A stretch of DNA of 64,000 bases, from the IMG/VR virus record IMGVR_UViG_3300008107_000003, positions 1 to 64,000 of that record; one strand, written 5' to 3'. Source of the stretch: a virus. Positions 3,317 to 51,134 of this stretch are shown one piece after another. Each line of letters opens with the position of its first letter. Positions within the stretch are counted from its first letter, which is position 1. The notes under the pieces are model-generated. The model was not told where the DNA came from. It was given only the letters and a program-made list of their open reading frames with translations, and did no database searches. A program made the position numbers and the translations under genes.

Positions 3317-3345
3317 AGTGTAGGATAATTAAAGCAGGGTGTCAA
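3317..3345 (-). promoter_or_regulatory. Sigma70-type promoter overlapping dam stop
   Basis: TTGACA (3345..3340), 17-bp spacer, TACACT (3322..3317). The -35 lies inside the last codons of the Dam-like gene and the stop codon falls in the spacer. The start near 3310 precedes the ATG at 3295. Confidence 0.7.
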
Positions 3346-4150
3346 GAGGTGACACATCATAATTAGTAATGTATAGATGACTTACCTTGTTGCCAGAATT
3401 ATCTCTACCAACAAAGTTCTGAGAATATTTGAAGTCCTTCGTAATCACGTTGTAATCGGCGTAAGCATCACGGTAGAACTCATTATCGCAATGGACTACC
3501 ATCCACTTCGCAGAAGTTGTCTGAAGGCATCCTAGAAGGTCCTGGTGAAGATTTAATCCACCATCTCCCTCAGTATAACCCAAACGATCTAGATATGGTG
3601 GATCAACGAATACAAAATCATTCTCTGTCAATCCATCAAATACTTTCTCAAAACTACCATGATCAATGTCACACTTGTGCAGAAACTTATGATGCTGTAG
3701 TGATAGATTGCAACTGAGTTTTTTATAATGTCCAAATGGCACATTAAACTCACCTTTAGAGTTATATCTCTCCATACCAGAAAAACACAGTTGCCTTACA
3801 ATAATATAAGCAATTGCTCGACTATCAAGATCAGTTGTATGTGACCATGGTTGATTAATGATCTCTCTAGATTTGTAATACAATTTCTCTAGATCATCAT
3901 GTTCTAGCAGTTTATACTGATCGATCCATGCTTGTACATCAGGATATAGAACTGGACTACCAATAACACGATACAAATTAATGACATCACGGTTAATATC
4001 ATTAAGATGTGCCATAGTTTCTAGACCAAAACTAACTGCAGCACCACCACAGAAAGGTTCAATAATCTTAGAATAAGTCTTTGGCAGAATAGTTTGAATG
4101 AAGGGCAGTTCTTTGCTTTTGCCACCCTGATATTTAATAATTGGTTTCAT
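3329..4150 (-). CDS. dam: DNA adenine methyltransferase (Dam, D12 class)
   Basis: 273 aa, normal size for a Dam-type N6-adenine methyltransferase acting on phage DNA. The N-terminal KYQGGK segment and IEPFCGG (residues 30-36) form the S-adenosylmethionine pocket, and the catalytic DPPY motif is at 183-186. The motif order (FxG first, DPPY second) fits the alpha/D12 class. No restriction partner is visible, so it is an orphan enzyme, probably protecting phage DNA or marking it. The ATG overlaps the stop of the next upstream gene by 4 bp. The recognition site cannot be told from sequence. Confidence 0.92.
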   Translation of the reverse strand: MKPIIKYQGGKSKELPFIQTILPKTYSKIIEPFCGGAAVSFGLETMAHLNDINRDVINLYRVIGSPVLYPDVQAWIDQYKLLEHDDLEKLYYKSREIINQPWSHTTDLDSRAIAYIIVRQLCFSGMERYNSKGEFNVPFGHYKKLSCNLSLQHHKFLHKCDIDHGSFEKVFDGLTENDFVFVDPPYLDRLGYTEGDGGLNLHQDLLGCLQTTSAKWMVVHCDNEFYRDAYADYNVITKDFKYSQNFVGRDNSGNKVSHLYITNYDVSPLDTLL

Positions 4151-5353: not shown

Positions 5354-5516
5354 TTTTACTTCCCGAATTTATAATAATTTGATCATCCAATCCATCATTA
5401 AATGATTTAACTAGATAATCTTTGATTAATCCCTCATCCATGCCCTCTAGCATGTTATTAATTTGTGTTTTAACATCTTTAAATGTTTTAACTACTAAAT
5501 TGTCCCCATCTTTCAT
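5328..5516 (-). CDS. Hypothetical acidic protein, 62 aa
   Basis: The start is placed at the ATG at 5516, because GGAGG sits 8 nt upstream of it; an earlier in-frame ATG at 5537 lacks such a site. Sequence MKDGDNLVVKTFKDVKTQIN, with an acidic middle and a Ser/Asn/Lys tail. It overlaps the end of the oxygenase-like gene by 29 bp. Confidence 0.65.
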   Translation of the reverse strand: MKDGDNLVVKTFKDVKTQINNMLEGMDEGLIKDYLVKSFNDGLDDQIIINSGSKNENSKSQQ

Positions 5517-6144
5517 GATAAGTTCCTCCAAGATCAAAATTAACTGTGGTTCTTATTCCTTCCCCTTGAGGAAGAGTACCATGAATTAACCAACTCGGAA
5601 AAATTATAATCATGCCTTTTTCTGGGAGAACATGTAATAGTCTTTTCTGAGGGTGATATAAATGACTGTAATTATCAGAGTGCATTACAAAGTATATTGG
5701 TCCTCGATTATCACTCGCACCTACAGTGTCCATTAGTGGAGATGGACCATCTGGCACCTCTGTATATATTACACAAGAAACATAATCTCTGCCATGTTCA
5801 TGAGGGGTATGATAAGAACCTTTATTTCCTGTCACCGTCCATCCAGAAATTATATTTAGTTTACTCCATTCAAATGGCAATAAACCATGATAAACTAATC
5901 GTCTTTGTATAATATCTTCATATGTTTCTTTTACAGTATTCCAATTTTTAGGTAGTTTAGGAATATAATCAGGACTCCATCCAGCAGGTGTAAAATATCT
6001 TTGAAATGATCCTCCACTTGCTGTAGTATAATCACTGTAATCTCTTGGATCTGCTTCTGAAACTATTTCTTCTAAATCTGAAACATTATCTAACTTGTCA
6101 ATAATAATCCAATTATTACCACAAGTAATCAATTCACCACTCAT
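5488..6144 (-). CDS. Putative 2OG-Fe(II) oxygenase
   Basis: 218 aa resembling the phage and marine-bacterial 2-oxoglutarate-dependent oxygenase family with a cupin fold (TIGR02466-like). Candidate iron ligands are H115 and H117 in HTPHEHGRD and H188 in WLIHGT. R198 in GIRTTVNFD is the likely 2-oxoglutarate anchor. The substrate is unknown. Its ATG overlaps the stop of the halogenase-like gene by 4 bp, so the two are translationally coupled and may act on the same molecule. Such oxygenases are frequent in cyanophages. Confidence 0.8.
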   Translation of the reverse strand: MSGELITCGNNWIIIDKLDNVSDLEEIVSEADPRDYSDYTTASGGSFQRYFTPAGWSPDYIPKLPKNWNTVKETYEDIIQRRLVYHGLLPFEWSKLNIISGWTVTGNKGSYHTPHEHGRDYVSCVIYTEVPDGPSPLMDTVGASDNRGPIYFVMHSDNYSHLYHPQKRLLHVLPEKGMIIIFPSWLIHGTLPQGEGIRTTVNFDLGGTYHERWGQFSS

Positions 6145-7604
6145 ACAGCATACTCCTGCTTATTATCAATAATTGCTTGCAATGCTTCTCTATGCGAAAC
6201 ATGTTCTGCTGCATTCATTTCTCTTTTCATAGCATTAAAATTAATTTGTATACTACTTAGAATATGATCAGGTTCATAATGTAATCTTCGTTGAGCAATT
6301 GTTGGTGGTATTAATCCTAATCCATGCATTACTTGGATCCAATTTGCTTCTCTAAACATATTATAATGATTTAAGAAATCACCCTTATCAGGATATCTAT
6401 ATTGATACATTTCTAATCGTTGTTCCAATCCTGGTGGAAGAGGTAAACTAGTAGCATACTTCCAAAATGCAGTATCGTTTCTCTTACAACGATAGTGTAA
6501 TGCAACAAAATCTAAAATGTTATCTAATAATTCTGCAAAATGATGATTGTAATAATCTTCTGCATATGTATTTCGTTTATCATAAGAATGAATAATATTT
6601 GTCAACATAAATGCTTGCTGAATACTACATCCAATAGATGTTGCTTCTAATGGTTCAATAAAACTAGCAGATAATCCGATTGCAACACAATTTTTAGACC
6701 ATGCTTTATCTAATCTACCAGGATCAAATTTAACATGTTTTGCAATTTCTAATTCTTTACCATAAAGTTCTTCAACTTCTCTGTGTGCTTCTTCTGCTGT
6801 AATAAATCTATCACAAAATACATATCCATTTCCAAATCTATTCTGTGTTGGTATTCTCCATAACCATCCGCAATCCATTGATCTTGATAGAGTAGTTGAG
6901 GGAATATCTTCTAATCTTTCTGTAGGAAATGCGATTGCTGAATTAAGAGGAAGATATTTAGAATAACTAATCCATTGAGCACCAAGAGATTTTTGATTAA
7001 TAATTCTACCAAATCCTGTACTATCAACATAGAAATCATAATAATGATGATATTTACCTAACAAATAATCTACACATCCATCTTCATCAAGTTGGACGTG
7101 TGCAATATCATCCTCAATAATTCCAATACCTCTCTTCTCGCAGAGTTTATGCAAATATTCATTTAATTTGAATGTATTAAAATGAAATTGATTTACACCA
7201 TGATAAGGTTTAATATGCAGATTATTGACTACATGATCTGGAACCAAATTATCAGATGGTTCTCCTCTTGCAATCATATCAGCAAATAAAAACTTTAATC
7301 CCGTCTGACTTTCTACTGTCAATTCTCCAGATAAAGAGTGAATATATCGTTGATTGTCACCATTCCAATTTACAAAATCAATTCCATATTTGAAAGTTGC
7401 ATCAGTTTCTTCAATTAATTCTGCAAGATTAATATTACAATGATGCATAAAGGTAGACCAATGTTCAGTAGATCCTTCACCTACACCAATAATACCAATT
7501 TTTTTAGATTCAATTAAATCGATATGAAATTTTGGATTATCTTGCTTTAAAATTAATGCTGTAACTAATCCACTTGTACCACCGCCGACAATCGCAATTT
7601 TCAT
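6141..7604 (-). CDS. Tryptophan halogenase-like flavoprotein
   Basis: 487 aa, close to the usual 500-540 of flavin-dependent tryptophan halogenases. GGGTSG (7-12) is the FAD-binding Rossmann motif. GWLWRIP (247-253) is the family signature WxWxIP, and K72 in TFKYGI fits the catalytic lysine position. E321 in IEPLEATS fits the conserved acidic residue. Such enzymes chlorinate or brominate indoles using FADH2 from a partner reductase, which is not encoded here. It overlaps both neighbours by 4 bp. The substrate in phage infection is unknown, and another flavin monooxygenase activity is possible. Confidence 0.88.
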   Translation of the reverse strand: MKIAIVGGGTSGLVTALILKQDNPKFHIDLIESKKIGIIGVGEGSTEHWSTFMHHCNINLAELIEETDATFKYGIDFVNWNGDNQRYIHSLSGELTVESQTGLKFLFADMIARGEPSDNLVPDHVVNNLHIKPYHGVNQFHFNTFKLNEYLHKLCEKRGIGIIEDDIAHVQLDEDGCVDYLLGKYHHYYDFYVDSTGFGRIINQKSLGAQWISYSKYLPLNSAIAFPTERLEDIPSTTLSRSMDCGWLWRIPTQNRFGNGYVFCDRFITAEEAHREVEELYGKELEIAKHVKFDPGRLDKAWSKNCVAIGLSASFIEPLEATSIGCSIQQAFMLTNIIHSYDKRNTYAEDYYNHHFAELLDNILDFVALHYRCKRNDTAFWKYATSLPLPPGLEQRLEMYQYRYPDKGDFLNHYNMFREANWIQVMHGLGLIPPTIAQRRLHYEPDHILSSIQINFNAMKREMNAAEHVSHREALQAIIDNKQEYAV

Positions 7605-8116
7605 TCAACTCCTCCATTTGGTAATCTTTCAATAATAAAGTTTGGATGTGTAGCTTTTTGGCATGTATGGACTGCTAATTGTGGTGAATATTGTTCATCC
7701 AATTCGTCAAAGAAATAAAGATTATTTACATGATCCCACAACCAAGAAAGTTCCCATTCACAACCTGTTTTAATCCATGCTTTTTTCCATTCCTCTTTAA
7801 AGTTTTCACAATAATCATACTTATATTCTAAGATAATAGTTGTATTTGCAATATACCTAACTTTACTTAAAAATTCTGCAGGATTATCAAGATATTCTAC
7901 CACTCCAGCAACCAGAGCAATATCAAACTTCTTGTCTCCAAAATCAGGAAACTCTACATTGAGATCACATTTTACATCACAACCATCCATAATGTCAACC
8001 CCCACATATTCTGTAGGTTGAATTAATTCTTTTAATGATTGATCTCCTGATCCAAAATGAACAACAGAAGCACCCTTTTCAACATAACGTTGAAAAAATA
8101 AATTTGATAATGACAT
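7601..8116 (-). CDS. SAM-dependent methyltransferase-like protein
   Basis: 171 aa from the ATG at 8116 (MSLSNLFFQRYVEKG); an upstream in-frame start would run into the previous gene. VVHFGSGDQ is the glycine-rich SAM motif, YVGVDIMDG the acidic motif II and FDIALVAGVVEYLDNP the motif IV/post-motif region, as in MetW/Methyltransf_11 class I enzymes. The substrate is unknown. The stop overlaps the halogenase start, so methylation may belong to the same modification pathway. Confidence 0.8.
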   Translation of the reverse strand: MSLSNLFFQRYVEKGASVVHFGSGDQSLKELIQPTEYVGVDIMDGCDVKCDLNVEFPDFGDKKFDIALVAGVVEYLDNPAEFLSKVRYIANTTIILEYKYDYCENFKEEWKKAWIKTGCEWELSWLWDHVNNLYFFDELDEQYSPQLAVHTCQKATHPNFIIERLPNGGVE

Positions 8117-8130
8117 AATAATTTTAATAA

Positions 8131-8664
8131 TTAAACGTTTTGTGAAGATTGACCGTATCCAAGTATAACTTCTTCTACCATACACATAGAAGGAGTATCA
8201 ATATTTCTTCCCCCTCCATCCCAATAACCAGTATGATTTATATGAATATTGTGATTTCCTTCAGCATATGATCTAATTCTATATCCAATTTGTGATCTTT
8301 TTCCTGCACCCCAAGAAGGAACCATGTATTCTCTTTGTCCTTGTCCCTCTTGATGATGATTTGATTGTGAATGTCTACCATATTCAACATCATCAACATA
8401 AAAAATCCAATGACTAATAGAGTGAGCACTGCCATACCATCTCATATGAGCATTCATACTAAATCTAATGTGACTATCTGATCTTGAAGGTTGAAACCAT
8501 AACCAACATCCAGGAGCCCAATAATATGTATTTACAGGTCTATACCATCCATCTCTGTAGTTAACTGTCTGCCTTTGTACAACTCTAGACACAAGATATG
8601 TACCTGTTACAGTACTGCTACCAGATGCATTACCTACGCTATTTACTCTTAAAGTTGCTGACAT
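8131..8664 (-). CDS. Paralogous structural (tail/fibre) protein, copy 1
   Basis: 177 aa. First of six related proteins sharing this order: N-terminal V-D/N-x-I patch, a WxPGxxxxFxP segment, then HSISHWIFYVDDVEYGRHS, PSWG, IGYRIRSY, a YWDGGG motif and a C-terminal EE. The Trp/Tyr/Gly-rich beta composition suggests a jelly-roll receptor-binding or fibre-tip domain. There is no signal peptide. The gene order beside large structural genes supports a virion role. Not matched to a named family. Confidence 0.8.
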   Translation of the reverse strand: MSATLRVNSVGNASGSSTVTGTYLVSRVVQRQTVNYRDGWYRPVNTYYWAPGCWLWFQPSRSDSHIRFSMNAHMRWYGSAHSISHWIFYVDDVEYGRHSQSNHHQEGQGQREYMVPSWGAGKRSQIGYRIRSYAEGNHNIHINHTGYWDGGGRNIDTPSMCMVEEVILGYGQSSQNV

Positions 8665-8670
8665 AATATT

Positions 8671-9198
8671 TTATAATGGTGATGGTAAATATTCTTCTGC
8701 TCTAGCTAATACTGGGACATAAAAAGTATTTCCTCCTCCATCCCAATAATGTCTAGCATTAAAATGTACGCAATGTGGACCGTCACTGTATTGTCTTACC
8801 CAATATCCCATCGTAATTGGTTGAAGTTGATTACCAAAATCTGATACAGGTATTTGCCATTTTAGATTGTGACCATGTTCTTGGTGATCATTGCTCTCAG
8901 AATGTCTATGATATTCAACATTATTAACGTAAAATCTCCAGTGACTAATTGAGTGAGCATTTCCACCTCTCCATCCTAAAGCACAATCAAACATATAATC
9001 AATTACACTGTTAATTCTTTTTGGTGTAATTGTAATATAACTACCTGGCAAAGGTCTCCATTCATTCTGTGGATTATAGGCACCCCATTGAGTTCTCTGC
9101 TGTATTCTTTGCAAAGTCCTTCTCTGTAGTTGATTGATCGTAAGAGATGTACTACTACTGTTAGTTCTAATAGTATCAACAAATAATTGGGATGCCAT
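8671..9198 (-). CDS. Paralogous structural protein, copy 2
   Basis: 175 aa and collinear with copy 1: LFVDTIRTN at the N-terminus, AHSISHWRFYVNNVEYHRHS in the centre, MGYWVRQY and HYWDGGG near the end. The inter-gene gap is 6 bp. It differs most in the N-terminal third, where Gln/Arg repeats occur (QLQRRTLQRIQQRTQ). Likely a variant tail protein; the ligand is unknown. Confidence 0.8.
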   Translation of the reverse strand: MASQLFVDTIRTNSSSTSLTINQLQRRTLQRIQQRTQWGAYNPQNEWRPLPGSYITITPKRINSVIDYMFDCALGWRGGNAHSISHWRFYVNNVEYHRHSESNDHQEHGHNLKWQIPVSDFGNQLQPITMGYWVRQYSDGPHCVHFNARHYWDGGGNTFYVPVLARAEEYLPSPL

Positions 9199-9204
9199 TG
9201 ATTA

Positions 9205-9567
9205 TTACTCTGGTTTTGGAAACTGCTCTTTAATTTCTAATCTTTTTGCTTGAAGTTCATCAGCATATCCAGGGTTATCTTCCATAATCTTATCCCAGAG
9301 AGCAATGATTAGTTCCTCTTTAGATGGATAACGACCTGGGAGTGCTCTTTGCATTCTAACTCTTTCAAGTGCAACTTCATCTTTAATTTCTTCCCACTTT
9401 GCAGCAAGTTCTTCTTTTGATGGTTGAGGACTATCTGCTAACCATGTAATATCCTCATAGTTTGGTCCTCTAACCCCATAAGGTTGTCCTGCATAAAATC
9501 TATGCATGACCTCACCATAATCTACACCATCATCTGCAAGTGGAAAATCCATCATGTTCTCTTCCAT
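9205..9567 (-). CDS. Putative tail-fibre assembly chaperone-like protein
   Basis: 120 aa, acidic, helical. The segment DITWLADSPQPSKEELAAKW resembles the W-x-D-x-x-x-x-P-S/T-K-E-E start of phage tail assembly chaperone-like proteins, and the 11715-12215 gene has the same TWNDDPSLKPTKEEVEAEA pattern. AAGGAGG lies upstream and a late box GATAAATA precedes it. It sits between paralogous tail genes, which supports a folding helper. Name is tentative. Confidence 0.65.
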   Translation of the reverse strand: MEENMMDFPLADDGVDYGEVMHRFYAGQPYGVRGPNYEDITWLADSPQPSKEELAAKWEEIKDEVALERVRMQRALPGRYPSKEELIIALWDKIMEDNPGYADELQAKRLEIKEQFPKPE

Positions 9568-9592: not shown

Positions 9593-9600
9593 TATTTATC
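9593..9600 (-). promoter_or_regulatory. T4-type late promoter box (GATAAATA)
   Basis: Minus-strand GATAAATA, 26 bp upstream of the ATG at 9567, matching the late consensus NATAAATA. Confidence 0.5.
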
Positions 9601-10168
9601 GAATATTAATAGTTCTACCTACTCCACCACGCTCTTCATTGCCAGCAGTTCCCAACCATTCTTCAACTAAAAGATAACCAAAAGCATTTTGTCTGCTACC
9701 TGTTCCATTCCAATAGTTTGTACTATATGCGCGAACTGTATGGTTATTTTGAGAATATGATCTCATTTGATAACCAATTCTACCATTTGAAGTTCCCCAG
9801 GAAGGAACCGTCCACTTAAAAGTATTCCCTTCTTCTAAATGATTTCCAGATTCACTATGCATAAATGTAAGAATACCATTAACATAAAATTTCCAATGAC
9901 TAATTGCATGACTGGCGTTTACCCATGCACGAGGTATTCTTGCCCAGAAAAATAATCTACTATCAGCTCTTTGTGGTGTAAAATCAACAAAAGCACCAGG
10001 TAACCAAGCATAAGAATTACTTGGATTCCAATCTCCACCAGTATAATCTGCACTATATCTTTGAATACATCTTGCATTCAATTCTGAAACAGGAATAGTA
10101 TAATTCTGTAAAGATAATGGAGATTGATTAACAGTACCTAAATTTTTAAGTGTAACTCTAGATGGCAT
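9596..10168 (-). CDS. Paralogous structural protein, copy 3
   Basis: 190 aa. Shares with copies 4 and 5 the blocks YTGGDWNPSNSYAWLPGAF, HAISHWKFYVNG, PSWGTSNGRIGYQMRSYSQN and YWNGTGSRQNA. It has a C-terminal extension of about 15 residues (GNEERGGVGRTINIR) that the others lack. Long stretches of its DNA are nearly identical to copies 4 and 5, pointing to recent duplication or recombination. Probable tail-tip protein. Confidence 0.82.
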   Translation of the reverse strand: MPSRVTLKNLGTVNQSPLSLQNYTIPVSELNARCIQRYSADYTGGDWNPSNSYAWLPGAFVDFTPQRADSRLFFWARIPRAWVNASHAISHWKFYVNGILTFMHSESGNHLEEGNTFKWTVPSWGTSNGRIGYQMRSYSQNNHTVRAYSTNYWNGTGSRQNAFGYLLVEEWLGTAGNEERGGVGRTINIR

Positions 10169-10680
10169 TATGCTACCTCCCCTGAACCAAGAACTTCATC
10201 AACCATTAGTTGACCATATGCGTTTTGTCTGCTACCTGTTCCATTCCAATAGTTAGTATCATACCATCTTAAAGTATGATTATTTGTAGCATATGCTCTA
10301 ATTTGGCATCCTATTCTAGCATTAAATGTTCCCCATGAAGGAACTTCCCACATATATGTATCTCCATCTTCCAGATGAGTTCCAGCTGCAGAATGATACT
10401 TGAATAATCTACCATTAGCATAAAATTGCAAATGACAAATCGCATTACTAGCATTTACCCAGGCACGAGGAGCTCTCCAAGCATATTGAATTAAACTATC
10501 AGATCTTTGAGGTGTGAAATCTACAAAAGATCCTGGCACCCAAGCATATGATGTACTAGGATTCCAAGAACCTCCAGTATAAACAGATTGATATCTTTGC
10601 AAATATCGATTATTATACAATTCTTTTACAGGAATTGTAATATTACTAGCAAGATTTGTAATTCTATCTACAGAAATCAT
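10168..10680 (-). CDS. Paralogous structural protein, copy 4
   Basis: 170 aa from the ATG at 10680 (MISVDRITNLASNITIPVKE); earlier in-frame codons overlap copy 5. It has YTGGSWNPSTSYAWVPGSF, NARIGCQIRAYATNNHTLRW and YWNGTGSRQNAYG. The stop shares a base with the start of copy 3. It differs from the other copies by a Cys in the IGCQ block. Confidence 0.82.
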   Translation of the reverse strand: MISVDRITNLASNITIPVKELYNNRYLQRYQSVYTGGSWNPSTSYAWVPGSFVDFTPQRSDSLIQYAWRAPRAWVNASNAICHLQFYANGRLFKYHSAAGTHLEDGDTYMWEVPSWGTFNARIGCQIRAYATNNHTLRWYDTNYWNGTGSRQNAYGQLMVDEVLGSGEVA

Positions 10681-10688
10681 GATTACAC

Positions 10689-11198
10689 CTACGATGCTAA
10701 GTATTCTTGAATATAAGTTTGACCATAACAATTTTGGTTGCTGCCGCCGCCTTCCCAATACTGAGTAGAATAAACTCCTACTTCATGGTTATTTTGAGAA
10801 TACATTCTCATTTGATAACCAATTCTACCATTTGAAGTTCCCCATGATGCAAAGTCCCACACATATGTAGCACGATGCTCTTTATGATGTCCACTAATCG
10901 AATGCCTGCCTTGTTCTGTGCTTCCATTTGAATAAAATATCCAATGACTAATTGAATGAGCATTTCCTGCCCATCTTGCAACAGGAAGTGTCCAGTAACA
11001 TCTTATTCTAGATGATGCTGATAATGGAGTATAATCAACAAATGCTCCAGGAACCCAAGCATAGTTATTATTATTTCTCCATCCACCACCAGTATAGGTA
11101 CTTCTAGTTTCACGAAGAATTCTTCTCCTCAACTGATCCAAAGAAAGAGGATCAAGATTAGGATCTGGACTAATAGTATCGGTAACAAGTGTACTCAT
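10689..11198 (-). CDS. Paralogous structural protein, copy 5
   Basis: 169 aa with YTGGGWRNNNNYAWVPGAF, AHSISHWIFYSNG, HSISGHHKEH, SWGTSNGRIGYQMRMYSQN and YWEGGGSNQNCYG. The centre is closest to copy 3 and the His-rich loop is closest to copies 1 and 2, so the copies are mosaic. The ATG overlaps the stop of copy 6 by 4 bp. Confidence 0.82.
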   Translation of the reverse strand: MSTLVTDTISPDPNLDPLSLDQLRRRILRETRSTYTGGGWRNNNNYAWVPGAFVDYTPLSASSRIRCYWTLPVARWAGNAHSISHWIFYSNGSTEQGRHSISGHHKEHRATYVWDFASWGTSNGRIGYQMRMYSQNNHEVGVYSTQYWEGGGSNQNCYGQTYIQEYLAS

Positions 11199-11704
11199 GT
11201 TGGTAAATACTCCTCGATTGTCATTAAAGCTCTACAAAATTGAACAGATCCACCACCATCCCAATATCCAGTAGAGTGTAGTCGATTACGATTACTATTT
11301 CCATACCATCTCATTTGATATCCAATTCTTTGTGTTCCACTGTGCCAAGGAACATCCCACATATAACAATGTCTAGTTTCATAGTTTTGAGAAGATATAC
11401 AATGTCTACCTCTTTCTACAGAACCACCTTGAGTATAGAAAATACAATGCATAATATTATGACCATCAATATAACCTACAGAAAAATTACAAGTAACTCT
11501 AGCTCTTACGTTCTCAGAAGATGCTCCAAAAAATGCGTAGTCCCACCATAATCCAGGAGCCCATCCGTAGTTTGTACCAGGATCCCAAGTACCACCAGTA
11601 TATTCTTGATATACTGTTCTAATAATCCTACCTCGTAATTGTGCTGTAGGAATTGCAACTGTAAGATCTGAAGTTGCTATTGTATCAACCCTAAGGTTAC
11701 TCAT
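11195..11704 (-). CDS. Paralogous structural protein, copy 6
   Basis: 169 aa, the most diverged of the first subfamily: YTGGTWDPGTNYGWAPGLW, IMHCIFYTQGG, RHCISSQNYE, QRIGYQMRWYGNSN and STGYWDGGGSVQ. It has extra cysteines in place of Ser or Trp positions. It sits next to the tail-assembly-chaperone-like gene and starts 11 bp after that gene's stop. Confidence 0.8.
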   Translation of the reverse strand: MSNLRVDTIATSDLTVAIPTAQLRGRIIRTVYQEYTGGTWDPGTNYGWAPGLWWDYAFFGASSENVRARVTCNFSVGYIDGHNIMHCIFYTQGGSVERGRHCISSQNYETRHCYMWDVPWHSGTQRIGYQMRWYGNSNRNRLHSTGYWDGGGSVQFCRALMTIEEYLPT

Positions 11705-11714
11705 ATTTAACCTC

Positions 11715-12215
11715 CTAACCTAAATCAGGTCCAGTAAGATCTTGCCTTTCTCCAGGTTGAGGTGAAGCTTCAGGTTTTGTTGGCCATGGAACATTTTTTA
11801 AAACCCCATCTTGAAGAACAGGATTGATATCCAAATCAGTAATATCTCTAAGAGCCTGCATATAATCTACCCATTCTTGAGGAACTGGTTCATTTCTACT
11901 CATAGAGCGAATAATAATCCAATCACATTCCTTAAGTTTTGCATTACGAACTCTTCTAACTGCTTGCATTGGTGCTAGTTTTTGAAGTCTAACAGCCTCT
12001 GCTTCTACTTCTTCTTTTGTTGGTTTTAAAGATGGATCATCATTCCAAGTCAGTCCTTCCCAATCTTCTCCAACTAAACTCCACGCACAACTTGGACGAA
12101 GAGAAATAATAGCTGCAGCAAGATCAGGTTTTGAATATGCGTATTTTGTTTCTTCTAATGTATAATTTGGAGCAGATGATTTTTCTGCATCTCTTACATC
12201 AATTTCTTCCGCCAT
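11715..12215 (-). CDS. Phage tail assembly chaperone-like protein
   Basis: 166 aa from the ATG at 12215, which has GGAG 6 nt upstream. The C-terminal region carries the pattern of the Phage_tail_APC family: RVRNAKLKECDWIIIRSMSR, then PQEWVDYMQALRDI. The N-terminal part has LTWNDDPSLKPTKEEVEAEA and the end is Pro/Gly-rich (QPGERQDLTGPDLG). It presumably assists folding of the flanking fibre proteins. A late box CATAAATA lies about 22 bp upstream. Confidence 0.8.
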   Translation of the reverse strand: MAEEIDVRDAEKSSAPNYTLEETKYAYSKPDLAAAIISLRPSCAWSLVGEDWEGLTWNDDPSLKPTKEEVEAEAVRLQKLAPMQAVRRVRNAKLKECDWIIIRSMSRNEPVPQEWVDYMQALRDITDLDINPVLQDGVLKNVPWPTKPEASPQPGERQDLTGPDLG

Positions 12216-12236
12216 ATACAACTCCAGTTTTATCTT

Positions 12237-12244
12237 TATTTATG
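12237..12244 (-). promoter_or_regulatory. T4-type late promoter box (CATAAATA)
   Basis: Minus-strand CATAAATA about 22 bp before the ATG at 12215; it overlaps the end of the next upstream gene. Confidence 0.5.
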
Positions 12245-12887
12245 CCTGAGGATATGCCCATTCTTCAACTAATCCGAAACTGACACCTTGTTCATAACTA
12301 TCTCCTCCATTTTGATAGTTTGACCAAGTTGCATTTAAAACAAATCCATCATCTCTGTTATTTGCGTTCTTAACCCAAGGTGTATAAGTAACAGGATTTA
12401 AAGTTTGTGGACGATCCCACCAACCAAAAACTACATTAATTGGTGTACTGTCTGTATTATTATCATAGTGCAGAACAGCAACACCATTAGAATTCAACCA
12501 TGTATCATATAATCCTGCTTCTGGAATTTGTTGTAATGCTTGACCTCCAGAAATTGAGTTATTGTTTCTAGCAACTCCCATAGTATTATCCCAGGATGCT
12601 TCGCAAAAAATATTGTATTCAATATAAAACCAACTGTTGATTGATTTTGGCTGCACTACAATTTCTAATGGTTCTAGTAATGTAGCTTGTGTTTGTGTGG
12701 GTCTAATAATGTTATTTTCTGGTCCTGGTCTTCTATCGTTGTTTTGTACACGATAATATACTCTATCCATAGAAACTTTATAACGTACCTGTACAACAGA
12801 CCCAGGCATGTATAGTGATGATGGAGAATTAATGAATACTGTAGAACTAGTATTCCCTTGAATTGTATTTACTTTTAATTGGCTCAT
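12240..12887 (-). CDS. Second-subfamily structural paralogue A
   Basis: 215 aa from the ATG at 12887 (MSQLKVNTIQGNTSSTVFIN); earlier frame overlaps the next gene. It shares with the two following genes an N-terminal PGSVVQV/YxVxxR patch, a VQPKSINSWFYIEY block (others: ITPKYSNSTI), a YDNNTDSTPINVVFGWWDRP block and a C-terminal YEQGVSFGLVEEW. Beta-rich. Inferred virion protein. Confidence 0.78.
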   Translation of the reverse strand: MSQLKVNTIQGNTSSTVFINSPSSLYMPGSVVQVRYKVSMDRVYYRVQNNDRRPGPENNIIRPTQTQATLLEPLEIVVQPKSINSWFYIEYNIFCEASWDNTMGVARNNNSISGGQALQQIPEAGLYDTWLNSNGVAVLHYDNNTDSTPINVVFGWWDRPQTLNPVTYTPWVKNANNRDDGFVLNATWSNYQNGGDSYEQGVSFGLVEEWAYPQA

Positions 12888-12889
12888 GA

Positions 12890-13456
12890 TTAGTAATCTG
12901 CAGAAATTTCCCAAGCAAATCCATAACTAATTCCTATTTCATGGTTTCCAGTACCAGTGCTACCAGATGTTCTATTAAAGAAATAAGTATAGTTGCTACC
13001 ATTAGATGATCTAACAGCAACATCATAAGTTTGTGCGGATGTTGCTCCAGGACGATCATACCAATCAACAGTATGAAGATGAGGTGTGCTATCTACGTTT
13101 TGATCATACAAACAAGTTGTAATACAACTATGTCTAGCATTTCCTCTTTGTGTATTATATCCTATAAGACCATTATTTCTACGAACAAGAAATACGACAT
13201 TCTCATTCCCTTCTCCATGAAGCATCCATCTCAATCTAATGGTGCTATTTGAATATTTTGGAGTAATTACTAATCTTACATCAGTGAGTGGATTACCATC
13301 TCCACTATTACTAGCAGAATATGTAGTTCTATTATCACTTCTAACATACCAATGATTAATATATGTATTTGGAGCTCTTAATGTGTGCCCTGACTGCATC
13401 GAAAGAGTGTTTCCTGTTGCAGGAGCAATAGATCCAACAGTTATTGTTCTTGGCAT
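12890..13456 (-). CDS. Second-subfamily structural paralogue B
   Basis: 188 aa: PRTITVGSIAPATGNT, ITPKYSNSTIRLRW, IGYNTQRGNARHS, YDQNVDSTPHLHTVDWYDRP and a C-terminal NHEIGISYGFAWE. It has the same domain layout as paralogues A and C. It starts at the base that ends paralogue C (TAATG-type overlap). Probable tail or fibre protein. Confidence 0.78.
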   Translation of the reverse strand: MPRTITVGSIAPATGNTLSMQSGHTLRAPNTYINHWYVRSDNRTTYSASNSGDGNPLTDVRLVITPKYSNSTIRLRWMLHGEGNENVVFLVRRNNGLIGYNTQRGNARHSCITTCLYDQNVDSTPHLHTVDWYDRPGATSAQTYDVAVRSSNGSNYTYFFNRTSGSTGTGNHEIGISYGFAWEISADY

Positions 13457-14034
13457 TATCTTGCAATCTCCCTTAATACAAACATACTGACACCTTTTTC
13501 ATAATCCCCCCAATAGTTATTCCATGATTTATTTACACGAATACTATCATTACTATTACTTGCATATCTAGCACCAATACCGTATGTATAAGTAGAAGTT
13601 CCACCAGGACGATCTACAAATTTAATATGCAACCAATCTGGTGTACTACTCCTATCTTGATCATAACGTGCTCCAGTAACTCCACTATATTGAACGTTAC
13701 CAACGGCCGTATTATATCCTATATATCCAGCTGTATTGGTGATAGATCCATTTCTTAAAATTTGAAATGTAATATCATTGGAAGATTCATAAAATAAAAA
13801 TATGTCCATCCATATTTCACTATCACTATATTTTGGTGTGATAGCAGTATTTAATATTGATATTTCTCTACTTACGTTGTCAGCATTAGTTGCATATGTA
13901 GCAATAACATCCGTCATGTTCCAAACACATTGAATAACTGTGCCTGGAACTTTCATTAGAGTTCCAGCAGCAACTCCAATAACATAATCGTTTTCTGCTC
14001 TTCCGATTAATTCATCAACAATTACTGTACTCAT
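13456..14034 (-). CDS. Second-subfamily structural paralogue C
   Basis: 192 aa: STVIVDELIGRAENDYVIG, PGTVIQCVW, ITPKYSDSEIWMDIF, IGYNTAVGNVQYSG, YDQDRSSTPDWLHIKFVDRP and YEKGVSMFVLRE. Paralogous to A and B. Its ATG overlaps the stop of the following fibre-like gene by 4 bp. Confidence 0.78.
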   Translation of the reverse strand: MSTVIVDELIGRAENDYVIGVAAGTLMKVPGTVIQCVWNMTDVIATYATNADNVSREISILNTAITPKYSDSEIWMDIFLFYESSNDITFQILRNGSITNTAGYIGYNTAVGNVQYSGVTGARYDQDRSSTPDWLHIKFVDRPGGTSTYTYGIGARYASNSNDSIRVNKSWNNYWGDYEKGVSMFVLREIAR

Positions 14035-14627
14035 ACAATACTCCAGTCTCCATTGACCGTAACAGTTTGTCCACTTGCTATAGTAATTGGTCCAGCTGTC
14101 ATACCATTGGTTCCAGATGGAATGGTAAGTGAAGTAGAAATTGTAGCACTATTAGTTCTAATAATCGATGCTGATCCAAGATAAGGAACTTCATCAATTG
14201 TTACTGCCCTGTTTCCAGCAATTGTCAGTTGCGAACCATTAAATGTCAAGTTGGAAGATGAATTCAAAGCACTAGTACCATTACCATACAACAAATATCC
14301 AGAAGTAAAAGATGTTTGCCCTGTTCCACCTTTATTAACAGCAACTGCTGAACTTAAGTTAGCAGGGTTCAAATAATATGAACCTGCTTGTCCGCCAAGA
14401 GTTCCAGCATTTAACAAACTCCAAGCAGTTCCATTATGAAAGTAAATATCATTTACACCAGTGTCATAAATCAAATAACCTGCACTAACACCTGTCAATC
14501 CAGTTCTAGATGCAGTTGCAAGTGCAGGAAGTCTGAAAAAGCTAGTTGATACGTTATTGAAATTCAACGTCTGCAACGTTGCCGTTGTAGTCGTATTAAT
14601 CTGAGTTTCTGTAATCTGCTGGCCCAT
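14031..14627 (-). CDS. Tail fibre-like structural protein
   Basis: 198 aa, low in charge and rich in Thr, Ser, Gly and Asn. It contains VNKGGTGQTSFTSGYLLYGN, a repeat type common in phage tail-fibre and short-tail-fibre shafts. A short N-terminal helix (TETQINTTTTATLQTL) may mediate trimerisation. Preceded by a late box about 25 bp upstream. Virion role inferred from composition and place. Confidence 0.8.
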   Translation of the reverse strand: MGQQITETQINTTTTATLQTLNFNNVSTSFFRLPALATASRTGLTGVSAGYLIYDTGVNDIYFHNGTAWSLLNAGTLGGQAGSYYLNPANLSSAVAVNKGGTGQTSFTSGYLLYGNGTSALNSSSNLTFNGSQLTIAGNRAVTIDEVPYLGSASIIRTNSATISTSLTIPSGTNGMTAGPITIASGQTVTVNGDWSIV

Positions 14628-14651: not shown

Positions 14652-14659
14652 TATTTATT
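14652..14659 (-). promoter_or_regulatory. T4-type late promoter box (AATAAATA)
   Basis: Minus-strand AATAAATA 25 bp before the ATG at 14627, in the short gap after the 1306-aa structural gene. Confidence 0.55.
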
Positions 14660-17600
14660 ATAATGGTAGTTCTCTAATGTGAATTGTATCCCTAGCAGAA
14701 GGAATATGAGTACCAGTGAATACAACGTTTGTGCCCGAAACATTATAATGAGTAGCAGGTATTTGAAGAACACCATTTAAGAATACAAGAACACTGCTGG
14801 AAGTATGTGCTGTTAATGCTGTTAAAGCAAATGTTGTTGTAGTACCATTACCAGTATAGTTACGAGAAACATATTTACCACTTAATCCATAAGTACCAGT
14901 TACACTTAAATTACCTGTAGCATTTAAGTTACCACCAACATTTAATTTAGCCGTTGATATTGGAGCGGCGCCAATGCCAACGTTTGTGGTCGTTGATAAA
15001 GCATCAGCAGTAATGGCAAAGTTACGAAGATCAAATACTTTAGTATTAGTTAAACCAAACTGATACCATGTGGTTCCATAATATAACCAACCCAAGTTTC
15101 TGCCATATCCAGTTGTAGTACTAGTTGGATCCCAGCTGGTATTCCAAATAATATCTCCGTTACTTGGAGTTGTATAATATGTTGGCAATACAGGGTTTCC
15201 AGAAGTGTTGGTTGGAGCAATTAAGGTTCCTTTAAGAACTGTACCATCGTTATTAGAATAAGTAATCTTCTTAGCTTGGAATTCTTGATCTGAAGTAACT
15301 TTTGATTGGAAAGTAACAGGACCAGAGAATAATGATTCTAAGGAGTTACTATCACCACCAATAACAGTTAGTTTATCAGTAAGAACAAGTTCAGAGAATG
15401 TCTGAATGGTAGTTCCTTCTTCACCTACAACATTTAACTGTGCAATGTCACTAGAAGTAATTTGACCTGTAACTGGGTTAATAACTTGGTTACCAATGAA
15501 TAGGTCACCATTTGAGTTTAGACCAGAATAGAATGAAACTCCAGCTGCCTCCTTCAAACACTGAGCATATTTAACTTGATCAAAGGTAAGAACTTCAATC
15601 TGTGTTTGTGGGAATGCAGTTGAGTAGTTACCAGGACCAAATCCAACATATTCAAAGGTATGGTTACCAGAACGTTGAATAGAGTGACGACGAAGTTCAA
15701 TTAGTAGATCGACTACTGTACTTCCTTGTAATTTAAGTGGAATTTTTCTTGTCTCTGCATCGCCTGCATATGCAGTAACTGTAGTTGTTCCAAGTTTATT
15801 TAACGTTGACGTATATCCTAAGGCATTACTTGTCTCTGCAAGGAAAAATTCTACTGCTTCTTTAGTAATACTACGCTTAGAATCAACGGTTGTTCCATCA
15901 GATGTAGCACTTACTGCTCCAATAGTTACATTATCAGCAATTGAAATTGCTGCTAATGGATCTGCTTGAGGATTATCTCTATCAAATGCAGGATAAACTT
16001 CATTCACATTTTGTGAAAACTTGTAATCACTATAATTTGATGTTGTTGGAGAAATTGACGCACATAATACTGTTAGATAGAAAATACCATCTTGTACATC
16101 AGAAATAAAAGGTTGAATTTTTTCAGACTCATAAACGTAAAATACTTTATTATAATCTGAAGCTGTTCCCTGTCTAGGTTGAATAACATATCCAGTCAAA
16201 GGATCTCTAGGCAGTGGTTTAGCACCTTTAGGAATAACATATCTAAATCTATAAATTCTGTCCTTCAGTGTTCTTGCGTCAGAAATTCTCTTAATGAATG
16301 CTGAAGGCGTAAAGTTCAAGTTATTATAAATTGTACTTGTATTCAGTTCAGTATAAATTGTATTTGTAGCACCTTGAACACACTGAATATACCATCCACC
16401 AACAACGTTACCTAGTCCAGAAATATTATAAACTGTACTATCATATTTGATTGGACTATTTGTTTGTCCTGCTGTAGTTCCTGTTACTAGTCCAGTATTA
16501 TTGGATGGAGAAATTCTTGCTTCTCGAATAATATTACCTGTCGTTGTCTGAAGATTACAGAATAATCTATCAGGTAAAGACTGCGTTGTATCATATCTAG
16601 CACCAATTTGATAACCTTGTGCTTTAACAGGAGGAGCAGTTGAAGCATTAGTATATCCATATAGATATAATCTTGCACCAGTTCCAGATGCTCCACCTAA
16701 AGCACCAACATGTTTTGTTCTCTTAACATCAATATTTACCCAGTTAATAGAAATCTCAGTACCAAATGTAATATAACCACTTACTGTTGAAGCATTAGCA
16801 ACTGAAAGAGTAATTACTGTACCATTAATTGCAGATACTGTAGCATTTGTTCCTATTCCATTACCACTAACTGCTTGTCCTTGAACAATACCATTATTAT
16901 TAGCAACAGTAATTGTAAATTGTCCTGATGTACCAGTTGCAGTAGTACTTACAACATCTAATTGTTTTGGAGGAATGACATGTGTAAATGTTCCTGCTTT
17001 ATCTTTAGTAAAGGCAGCTGCTTTAAATCCTCTACATCTCAATGCTGTACTACCAAAGTTAGAGTTACTGTTAGTGATCGACATGTCAGCACCACTATCA
17101 GCAAAGAAGTGATCACCATATGCAACAGCGAACACCGAAACGACCTGAATAAAAGCATCATTAGCAGCTTTAATGTGGCAATGTCGCCACCCCTGTTTAT
17201 ATCGACATGCACCATCTAAGTGAGAACCTGATCCACCGTCATCATATGTTTTAGTAACTGAATTATATCTTACAAAAGCTCTATCATCTTTCTGCAGAGA
17301 TAGTCCCGTAAACTGTGCAACAACCATAGATTTAAAACCAGTTGTTCTAAATCCATCAGCATTCATACCATTCAATCCCCAAACAGATCGCAATGAACAG
17401 TTGAAGATATATGGTGAAGCACTGTCTACAGTATCAATTTCAACCTTTGCAAGAATATTTGTACCAATAGCATTACCAGACGGTTCAGATGCCATCTGAT
17501 AAGTGAATAATGAACCTTGTGCCGAAGTAACTTGGAATGATCCATTATACAATGCAGCATCAAGATCTGATTGCGGTCCTGTAGATCCAATAACACCACT

Positions 17601-18578
17601 GACATTAATTGAAATGCCCACAGAGAAACCATGGTTTACTGGAGTATCATCCTCGTCTACAGTAATAGCAGTTGCTGTTTGACCGTTCCTGTTAATTGAT
17701 AGGACACGAAATTCGTCAGAAATTGGACCAACAATTCTGTTTTCTTCAACTCTTGCTTGTAACTGATCTTGTCCAGGTGCTCCAGAAGTATCAGGAATAG
17801 AAGCGTATGCTCTTGAAATCTTTTGATAATAAAGTTCTAGATCAGTTCTATCTGATAAGTTTGGATCTCCAACTCCACTTGGAATTGTAAGTCTAGATCC
17901 ACCATCTGCACTTGAAAGGTAACCAAGAGTATTTCTACCATCAGCAAATTCAAATGCTGTCAACTTATGGTGAGAGAAGCTTGGTTGAATAGTTCTGGGA
18001 TCACCAGGAAGATAATATACTCCTGTTTCATCACCATCAAAAATGGTGAACTGCCACATATAGCATCCACCAGTAACTCTGAATATTGCTGAACTCTTTG
18101 GTTCGTTTTCTGAACTAACGCCAATCGAAGATTTTGTTGTTGGATATGGAACATACTTAGGAACAATTTTTGTTCTTCTGAGGTCAGATCCAATAATTGA
18201 ACAACCTCTAGGAACAATTACACCACCTTCAACAGAATTAAACTTATATAATACGTTTGATGGATTAGTAATATCAAAGTTACTGTTACTATCTAATGGT
18301 GCAATCTGTGTATAATCAAATTCTCCTGGTCTATTATCAATAATATATTCGGAAGGATACAGATAGATACTAAAAGCATCAAATTCGTCGTTTGAAAGTC
18401 CTACTCTATACGAAAATCTAGCAACTTCTAAAAATGCTCTTTGTAAAGTTTTAAACGGTCTTAGAGCAGAGTTGCCCCTATTATCAATCGAATCTGTAGC
18501 ATCAAAATCGTCTGGGTTGACGTAAATAATACGCCCAGTACGAGAAGTGACAATATTCTTTAATCTTGTTAATGACAT
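14658..18578 (-). CDS. Large virion structural protein, 1306 aa
   Basis: The start SLTRLKNIVTSRTGRIIYVN followed by a pectate-lyase-like opening (NRGNSALRPFKTLQRAFLEV) is typical of large cyanophage structural proteins. The middle is rich in Ser/Thr/Gly/Asn and probably forms a right-handed beta-helix. The C-terminal 60 residues contain GTTTTFALTALTAHTSSSVL and FLNGVLQIPATHYNVSGTNV, a repeat unit seen in fibre proteins. Likely a tail-fibre or baseplate-associated spike. Exact T4 counterpart unclear. Confidence 0.85.
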   Translation of the reverse strand: MSLTRLKNIVTSRTGRIIYVNPDDFDATDSIDNRGNSALRPFKTLQRAFLEVARFSYRVGLSNDEFDAFSIYLYPSEYIIDNRPGEFDYTQIAPLDSNSNFDITNPSNVLYKFNSVEGGVIVPRGCSIIGSDLRRTKIVPKYVPYPTTKSSIGVSSENEPKSSAIFRVTGGCYMWQFTIFDGDETGVYYLPGDPRTIQPSFSHHKLTAFEFADGRNTLGYLSSADGGSRLTIPSGVGDPNLSDRTDLELYYQKISRAYASIPDTSGAPGQDQLQARVEENRIVGPISDEFRVLSINRNGQTATAITVDEDDTPVNHGFSVGISINVSGVIGSTGPQSDLDAALYNGSFQVTSAQGSLFTYQMASEPSGNAIGTNILAKVEIDTVDSASPYIFNCSLRSVWGLNGMNADGFRTTGFKSMVVAQFTGLSLQKDDRAFVRYNSVTKTYDDGGSGSHLDGACRYKQGWRHCHIKAANDAFIQVVSVFAVAYGDHFFADSGADMSITNSNSNFGSTALRCRGFKAAAFTKDKAGTFTHVIPPKQLDVVSTTATGTSGQFTITVANNNGIVQGQAVSGNGIGTNATVSAINGTVITLSVANASTVSGYITFGTEISINWVNIDVKRTKHVGALGGASGTGARLYLYGYTNASTAPPVKAQGYQIGARYDTTQSLPDRLFCNLQTTTGNIIREARISPSNNTGLVTGTTAGQTNSPIKYDSTVYNISGLGNVVGGWYIQCVQGATNTIYTELNTSTIYNNLNFTPSAFIKRISDARTLKDRIYRFRYVIPKGAKPLPRDPLTGYVIQPRQGTASDYNKVFYVYESEKIQPFISDVQDGIFYLTVLCASISPTTSNYSDYKFSQNVNEVYPAFDRDNPQADPLAAISIADNVTIGAVSATSDGTTVDSKRSITKEAVEFFLAETSNALGYTSTLNKLGTTTVTAYAGDAETRKIPLKLQGSTVVDLLIELRRHSIQRSGNHTFEYVGFGPGNYSTAFPQTQIEVLTFDQVKYAQCLKEAAGVSFYSGLNSNGDLFIGNQVINPVTGQITSSDIAQLNVVGEEGTTIQTFSELVLTDKLTVIGGDSNSLESLFSGPVTFQSKVTSDQEFQAKKITYSNNDGTVLKGTLIAPTNTSGNPVLPTYYTTPSNGDIIWNTSWDPTSTTTGYGRNLGWLYYGTTWYQFGLTNTKVFDLRNFAITADALSTTTNVGIGAAPISTAKLNVGGNLNATGNLSVTGTYGLSGKYVSRNYTGNGTTTTFALTALTAHTSSSVLVFLNGVLQIPATHYNVSGTNVVFTGTHIPSARDTIHIRELPL

Positions 18579-51075: not shown

Positions 51076-51134
51076 AAAAATACTTCGATAATTTGACATT
51101 CACAAATCAAACCAAAGTTTAATAAGCAAGCACC

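Follow-up and report, generated by a model that had tools for sequence, protein, structure and literature searches.

A 64,000-nucleotide stretch of viral DNA (positions 1 to 64,000 of IMG/VR virus record IMGVR_UViG_3300008107_000003; hereafter the window) encodes a three-gene cassette for a methyltransferase-like protein (MT), a flavin-dependent halogenase (HAL) and a 2-oxoglutarate (2OG)-Fe(II) oxygenase (OXY). Rather than standing as an isolated metabolic insert, the cassette ends a run of tail-fiber genes, directly after six paralogous genes for jelly-roll head proteins (ADH1 to ADH6). We give about an even chance to the reading that it is a tail-fiber maturation module, which halogenates, hydroxylates and perhaps methylates the phage’s own receptor-binding proteins. 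We favor this reading because the gene order is kept with the heads in eight lineages and the genes are tightly packed, because a search with the heads alone recovers the enzymes, and because halogenases are similarly linked to adhesins of a second type. The heads’ richness in Trp, Tyr and His also favors it, as does the cyanophage halogenase VirX1, which lies between tail proteins and an oxygenase array, has a large and accessible active site, and has no gene cluster listed for it.

The enzyme cassette

The three genes, in order of transcription, are:

7601-8116, minus strand: MT, methyltransferase-like protein, 171 aa from an ATG start, first gene of the cassette
6141-7604, minus strand: HAL, flavin-dependent (tryptophan-type) halogenase, 487 aa
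5488-6144, minus strand: OXY, 2OG-Fe(II) oxygenase, 218 aa

All three reading frames are open, and a longer GTG-start frame for MT extends to 8185. The MT/HAL and HAL/OXY junctions are each a 4-bp overlap of sequence ATGA, exactly as a preliminary description of this DNA had claimed. From the large tail fiber at 14658-18578 through the end of OXY, no gap exceeds 30 bp, and the cassette and the distal tail-fiber genes are therefore likely co-transcribed. The motif CTAAATA, which we take to be the cyanophage late-promoter motif, was uninformative: its 12 matches in the window, fewer than the 18 expected, are all on the minus strand, and none lies before the cassette. The source is a 176,692-bp virus record with psbA (phrog_182), nrdA/nrdB, a T4-type baseplate hub, a cyanophage tail fiber and 13 tRNA genes. 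The virus is a T4-like cyanophage, as its psbA gene indicates, and cyanophages give its nearest DNA matches in the phage collection, chiefly across the tail fiber gene.

HAL matches PF04820 with E=4.6e-100 (336 bits against a cut-off of 21) and phrog_2928 with 5.7e-102. Its best solved relative by sequence is the tryptophan 5-halogenase PyrH (2wet), which acts on free tryptophan within a biosynthetic pathway. PyrH residues K75 and E354, which we take to be its catalytic pair, align with HAL K72 and E320, and the latter two are invariant in 19 phage halogenases. The alignment breaks at HAL residues 92-138, a stretch shorter than the substrate region of PyrH, so that tryptophan-specific contacts may be absent from HAL. 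HAL also carries GxGxxG (GGGTSG, residues 7-12) and WxWxIP (W247-L-W249-R-I-P), given as the defining motifs of flavin-dependent halogenases (PMC8407142; here and below, cited papers are drawn on in part). The tryptophan-halogenase-like identity first assigned to this gene is thus well founded.

The preliminary description had also treated the lack of a flavin reductase as a puzzle. The absence is real, with no PF01613 match in the 176,692-bp record, but it is normal for such phages: PF01613 is missing from all 15 halogenase-bearing phage records searched and present in 13 of 14 control genomes, and the host therefore presumably supplies the reduced flavin for HAL. The closest cultured relatives of HAL are the tryptophan halogenases (prnA, T4-GC 212) annotated in marine T4-like cyanophages such as P-SSM2 and S-H38, at 37-43% identity. 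Both of these phages have a 2OG gene near the halogenase, as in the window; no MT ortholog and no ADH heads were found in any cultured phage searched.

OXY was correctly called a 2OG oxygenase, matching PF13759 with E=1.8e-14 (54.3 bits, cut-off 27) and phrog_81 with 9.2e-23; it is 39-42% identical to its cassette orthologs. In place of the textbook HxD/E...H motif, it has an invariant pattern H115-x-H117...H188 plus R198, in which H-x-H...H would be the putative metal ligands. Its structural relatives 2rg4 and 3bvc, which are solved PF13759-like proteins, show HxH...H at the corresponding positions. Among related loci, the labels phrog_274 (‘DNA endonuclease V’) and phrog_1644 (‘minor coat protein’), as at L008:1701-2342 and L008:6479-7099, look wrong, with Pfam giving 2OG-FeII_Oxy_3 and DUF6445/2OG for the matched proteins.

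The claim of a methyltransferase held for the fold and proved weaker than stated for the function. The best Pfam match of MT, Methyltransf_23 (E=1.9e-4), scores 21.6 bits and falls below the cut-off of 27. An AlphaFold2 model (mean pLDDT 75) matched class I S-adenosylmethionine (SAM) methyltransferases in Foldseek with probability 1.00 and TMq of about 0.45-0.61, consistent with a predicted class I Rossmann fold. The SAM-binding glycine motif I reads FGSGD in the window but is degenerate in most relatives, which makes enzymatic activity of MT uncertain. MT orthologs in related cassettes share 27-34% identity, and a search of 50,697 phage records gave just three weak matches (E=0.01).

Jelly-roll heads and the conserved gene order

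Upstream of the cassette, the tail-fiber genes run as follows:

8131-8664, minus strand: ADH1, jelly-roll tail-fiber head by AlphaFold2 and Foldseek, proposed substrate
8671-9198, minus strand: ADH2, paralogous head
9205-9567, minus strand: small protein between ADH2 and ADH3, possibly tail-assembly-chaperone-like (phrog_9114, 1.5e-7; XkdW, 3.7e-4, below cut-off)
9596-10168, minus strand: ADH3, paralogous head
10168-10725, minus strand: ADH4, paralogous head (start uncertain; ORF to 10758)
10689-11198, minus strand: ADH5, paralogous head
11195-11704, minus strand: ADH6, paralogous head
11715-12221, minus strand: tail assembly chaperone (PF16778, 1.2e-14; phrog_4912, 2.4e-12)
12240-14034, minus strand: three paralogous tail-fiber proteins, group W5 (phrog_6942, tail fiber)
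14031-14627, minus strand: tail-fiber protein, group c8 (phrog_5342, tail fiber, 1.4e-9)
14658-18578, minus strand: large tail fiber, 1306 aa, the conserved anchor of the locus (phrog_529, E=0)

The six ADH paralogs are 169-196 aa long, and the protein between ADH2 and ADH3 occupies an equivalent slot in relatives. The W5 proteins match phrog_6942 with 5.6e-9, 5.4e-12 and, for the third (L001:2149-2715, window 12890-13456), 3.9e-16.

The AlphaFold2 model of ADH1 is an all-beta jelly roll with a mean pLDDT of 85.5. Foldseek comparisons returned the BC2L-C N-terminal lectin (TMt 0.65-0.68), PLTL lectin, the lambda tail tip protein gpJ, C1q and a domain of the cyanophage A-1(L) short tail fiber; the matches to solved structures are modest, with E-values of 1e-4 to 4e-3. 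The monomer model thus predicts a head fold of the C1q/TNF-like lectin jelly-roll class. By sequence, ADH had no match in the PDB or, by tblastn, in the 50,697 phage records. Trp makes up 4.1%, Tyr 7.1% and His 4.1% of the head residues, a high share next to the 1.4, 4.2 and 1.5% of ORFs without assignment at these loci.

A halogenase query in IMG/VR returned 53 loci, eight of which (L001-L007, L051) carry MT orthologs, in each case with the halogenase on one side and the ADH array on the other. The order ADH-MT-HAL-2OG is kept in eight halogenase lineages (halogenases clustered at 90% identity) that are 54-80% identical to each other; in one, L074, the contig ends within HAL and its 2OG gene is unseen. 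Gene calls in these loci are greedy ORF picks, and the MT of L007/L075, found earlier, is masked in later tables. In L006/L007 a second halogenase lies 3' of the oxygenase. The recurrence of the MT-HAL-2OG order exceeds chance. The preliminary description had held that the three genes are coupled and probably share a pathway, and their staying together across these lineages supports that view; it had named a lack of such joint conservation as a refutation, and the lineages show the reverse.

The association also holds in the opposite direction. With the head family as sole query, we found 19 loci: 13 with enzymes adjoining the heads, two ending inside the head array, and four without enzymes, the last near-identical and representing one phage, at 43% identity. 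This search used a closer alignment (A6) as query, as a single ADH query matched the same phage only. In a tree of 73 sequences, the cassette halogenases form one group (SH-aLRT 99), which also holds L008, a locus with oxygenases and tail-fiber genes and without MT. The tree, built quickly and without bootstraps, takes in every one of the 59 phage-type rows and 14 of the bacterial ones, from 175 non-redundant halogenases. Each enzyme belongs to a known family; the coupled methyltransferase-halogenase-oxygenase-adhesin module is a new arrangement.

Halogenases, oxygenases and glycine-rich adhesins in other phages

In other cyanophages, and in phages not yet cultivated, it is common for halogenases and numerous 2OG/JmjC oxygenases to adjoin glycine-rich tail-fiber adhesins, identified as PF21722 (Gly_rich_2) and tail-fiber PHROGs. 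Of 59 loci fetched, 49 contain a protein of the main 2OG cluster, including the window’s own copies and five cultured phages. PF21722 lies within 5 kb of 4/7 halogenase loci, against 0.62 expected under random placement (p=0.0012, six records). This test used halogenase-bearing records with a Gly_rich_2 match; it left out G001, G002, G006, G009 and G010 (fragments or near-copies) and could not include G000, G003, G004, G007, W01, W02, W08 and W09 (no Gly_rich_2 match). A 2OG gene lies within 1.5 kb of 10/13 halogenase loci in 12 records, against 2.1 expected, and none of 5000 random placements reached 10. Those 12 records (of 20) exclude G008, which has no halogenase, and the fragments or near-copies G001, G002, G003, G006, G007, G009 and G010; positions were copied by hand, with matches within 330 bp merged, and the records are not independent, since G000 was chosen because of the finding and S-CREM1 and syn9 are related. 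The glycine-rich gp38 tips of T-even phages carry receptor-binding loops (PMC12892980), and by analogy the cyanophage glycine-rich proteins may be their functional counterparts.

VirX1 (CPUG_00131) of cyanophage Syn10 is a characterized iodinating enzyme and a useful biocatalyst. The Syn10 gene gives a full-length phmmer match to PDB 6qgm (E=0), and the protein has the PF04820 fold and catalytic Lys/Glu, as in HAL. The Syn10 order is tail fiber, glycine-rich genes, halogenase, VirX1, then oxygenases including JmjC_2/Cupin_8 and DUF6445 proteins. Syn9 and S-CREM1 have islands of a similar type, and a virion proteome of S-CREM1 identified 14 proteins (PMC9964418). VirX1 is thus the second of a tandem halogenase pair that has two PF21722 tail proteins on one side and the oxygenases on the other; like HAL in the window, it adjoins distal tail-fiber genes and 2OG oxygenases. 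The two systems also differ: VirX1 is about 30% identical to HAL, Syn10 lacks MT, its adhesin neighbors are glycine-rich rather than jelly-roll proteins, and it has an oxygenase array where the window has a single oxygenase. Through its syn9 ortholog, VirX1 groups with gp42-type halogenases of S-CREM1 and syn9, in a deep clade other than that of HAL. The JmjC_2/Cupin_8 families include the known protein hydroxylases YcfD, NO66 and MINA53. A review portrays the VirX1 active site as large and readily accessible and, in the part covered, lists no gene cluster for the enzyme (PMC8407142).

Several uncultivated phages (L013:7989-14001, L025, L034, L044 and the 270-kb contig L036) carry three to four tandem halogenase genes among about ten 2OG-type oxygenases. 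In the tree, the tandem slots belong to separate deep clades, with corresponding slots of different phages matching each other; these arrays are therefore old and probably divided in function. Two further proteins recur in such settings. One, of about 200 aa (L009:3684-4319 and relatives; cluster c4, 36 loci), sits inside halogenase/oxygenase islands and matches phrog_2954 (‘ferrochelatase’) with no Pfam match, so that its function is doubtful; the other (L009:11748-12506 and relatives; cluster c6) is a DUF6065-related protein, by a weak match below cut-off, recurrent beside halogenases. In S-RIM4 (L167), fetched by its tail fiber and not by its halogenase, the far side of the fiber operon carries a 2OG gene and a halogenase-family ORF of 387 aa. 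In S-PM2 (L063, NC_006820.1 121319-122608), an in-frame TAA breaks the halogenase frame, which may reflect a decayed gene or a sequencing error.

Among genome contigs, a single-protein scan found no relative, and alignment A5 found at least 593, of which 80 were kept. Three proteobacterial loci (L085, L088 and L095) combine tandem halogenases with SapC, Cupin_8 and DUF6445 genes, with a TonB receptor in L095. These clusters resemble the phage islands in pairing tandem halogenases with 2OG/cupin-type oxygenases, but differ in being cellular and TonB-receptor-linked, at 30-35% identity. Another locus, L163 (NHDJ01000130.1), is filed under a Verrucomicrobia genome and has two phage-type halogenases among 2OG genes, grouping with phage rows; it is probably a phage contig in a bacterial bin.

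Proposed function and alternatives

The preliminary description had allowed for either small-molecule or protein modification; with the tail-fiber heads, which it did not mention, directly upstream, the evidence leans toward protein. In a maturation module, the halogenase would draw reduced flavin (FAD) from a host flavin reductase and make hypohalite, which would place Br, Cl or I on exposed Trp, Tyr or His residues of the adjacent jelly-roll heads. The 2OG oxygenase would hydroxylate residues of these heads as well, with the MT-like protein either methylating them or serving as an accessory. Modification would take place before or during fiber assembly, and could alter receptor binding or harden the fibers. 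Like co-transcription, the substrate, halide and benefit in this scheme are what we infer.

A number of observations weigh against this scheme. Three of the 13 halogenase loci (S-PM2, S-SRM01 and the second locus of S-RIM44) have no 2OG gene within 5 kb, though the S-SRM01 halogenase lies between tail-fiber genes. The P-SSM2 halogenase is 56 kb from its Gly_rich_2 gene, and the second S-RIM44 halogenase is more than 50 kb away. Eight of 19 halogenase-bearing records lack any Gly_rich_2 match; three of these (G000, G003 and G007) instead possess ADH heads. In S-CAM22 and S-CAM8 the corresponding slot holds glycine-rich proteins, with no halogenase in the stretch examined, and the 229.7-kb record G008 (L080-L083) has ADH relatives and Gly_rich_2 genes with no PF04820, phrog_81 or phrog_274 match, showing that adhesins of this kind can do without the enzymes. 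Because the whole tail operon is common to the eight lineages, part of the synteny may reflect common descent. Finally, we rejected the lysine poverty of ADH as a sign of modification, since W5, c8 and glycine-rich tail proteins contain just as little.

Phage genes have carried the annotation ‘tryptophan halogenase’ for about two decades. The papers covered treat them as metabolic, acting in free-tryptophan chlorination or pyrrolnitrin-like antibiotic protection (PMC9964418, PMC2984593) or in changing host metabolites (PMC10452541), and tie phage 2OG oxygenases to nitrogen sensing or host metabolism (PMC3037559, PMC9602691). On such an account, HAL would act on free tryptophan, indole or another small molecule, OXY and MT would tailor the product, and the outcome would be an altered host metabolism or a protective compound. 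The family takes its name from enzymes that halogenate free tryptophan, tryptophan halogenases such as PyrH are the nearest proteins of solved structure, and VirX1 accepts many small aromatics in vitro (PMC8407142). Against this, none of the loci read has biosynthetic genes alongside the cassette, whose neighbors are tail fibers and small uncharacterized ORFs, and the shortened 92-138 stretch of HAL may lack tryptophan-specific contacts. We consider auxiliary metabolism unlikely.

Improbable, in our estimate, is hitch-hiking in a tail-fiber region prone to insertions, with the enzymes there for historical reasons and of unrelated or varied function. Cyanophages differ in what lies downstream of the large tail fiber, and some enzymes may therefore be passengers in this variable slot: it holds sericin-like genes in S-CAM22, carbamoyltransferase and 2OG genes in S-CAM8, and other genes in S-RIM4, and some halogenases lie elsewhere, amid hli, tRNA and nrd genes. 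Mere hitch-hiking fits poorly, however, with the tight packing, with an unchanged order and intact catalytic residues in eight diverged lineages, and with the link to adhesins of two unrelated kinds. More improbable still is that the enzymes modify the host's envelope, or a receptor or ligand of its outer membrane, for instance to block superinfection: bacterial PF04820 relatives do occur in SapC/Cupin_8/DUF6445/TonB clusters in the loci checked, and DUF6445 and Cupin_8/JmjC_2 proteins are common to these and the phage islands, but no recognized envelope or transport gene lies in the cassette at the phage loci read, and the linked genes are virion genes. A role in DNA modification was rejected, as a D12 class N6-adenine DNA methyltransferase gene nearby (3329-4150, minus strand, downstream) is outside the cassette with several small ORFs between.

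S-CAM22 and S-RIM4 likewise have a DNA methyltransferase near the corresponding slot. Elsewhere in the window, a 690-aa ORF without a PHROG match adjoins psbA (49027-51099, minus strand).

Our literature search, with most subscription papers outside its scope, found in the parts of the sources covered no link between halogenases and tails, no proposal of tail proteins as substrate, and no native substrate given for phage halogenases. It is possible, if somewhat against expectation, that cyanophages, and phages related to them, encode modules dedicated to halogenating and hydroxylating (and in some cases methylating) their own receptor-binding tail proteins. On that view, adhesin and enzymes would be passed on together as a single exchangeable cassette for host range, and VirX1-type enzymes would have tail proteins as their native substrates. 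The gene neighborhoods point to the tail proteins of cultured cyanophages as the place to look for halogen and hydroxyl modification. If the maturation reading is true, it would represent a new kind of virion maturation and a class of viral protein modification, would explain in part the oxygenase arrays of such phages, and would give enzymologists the substrate for which VirX1-like enzymes evolved.

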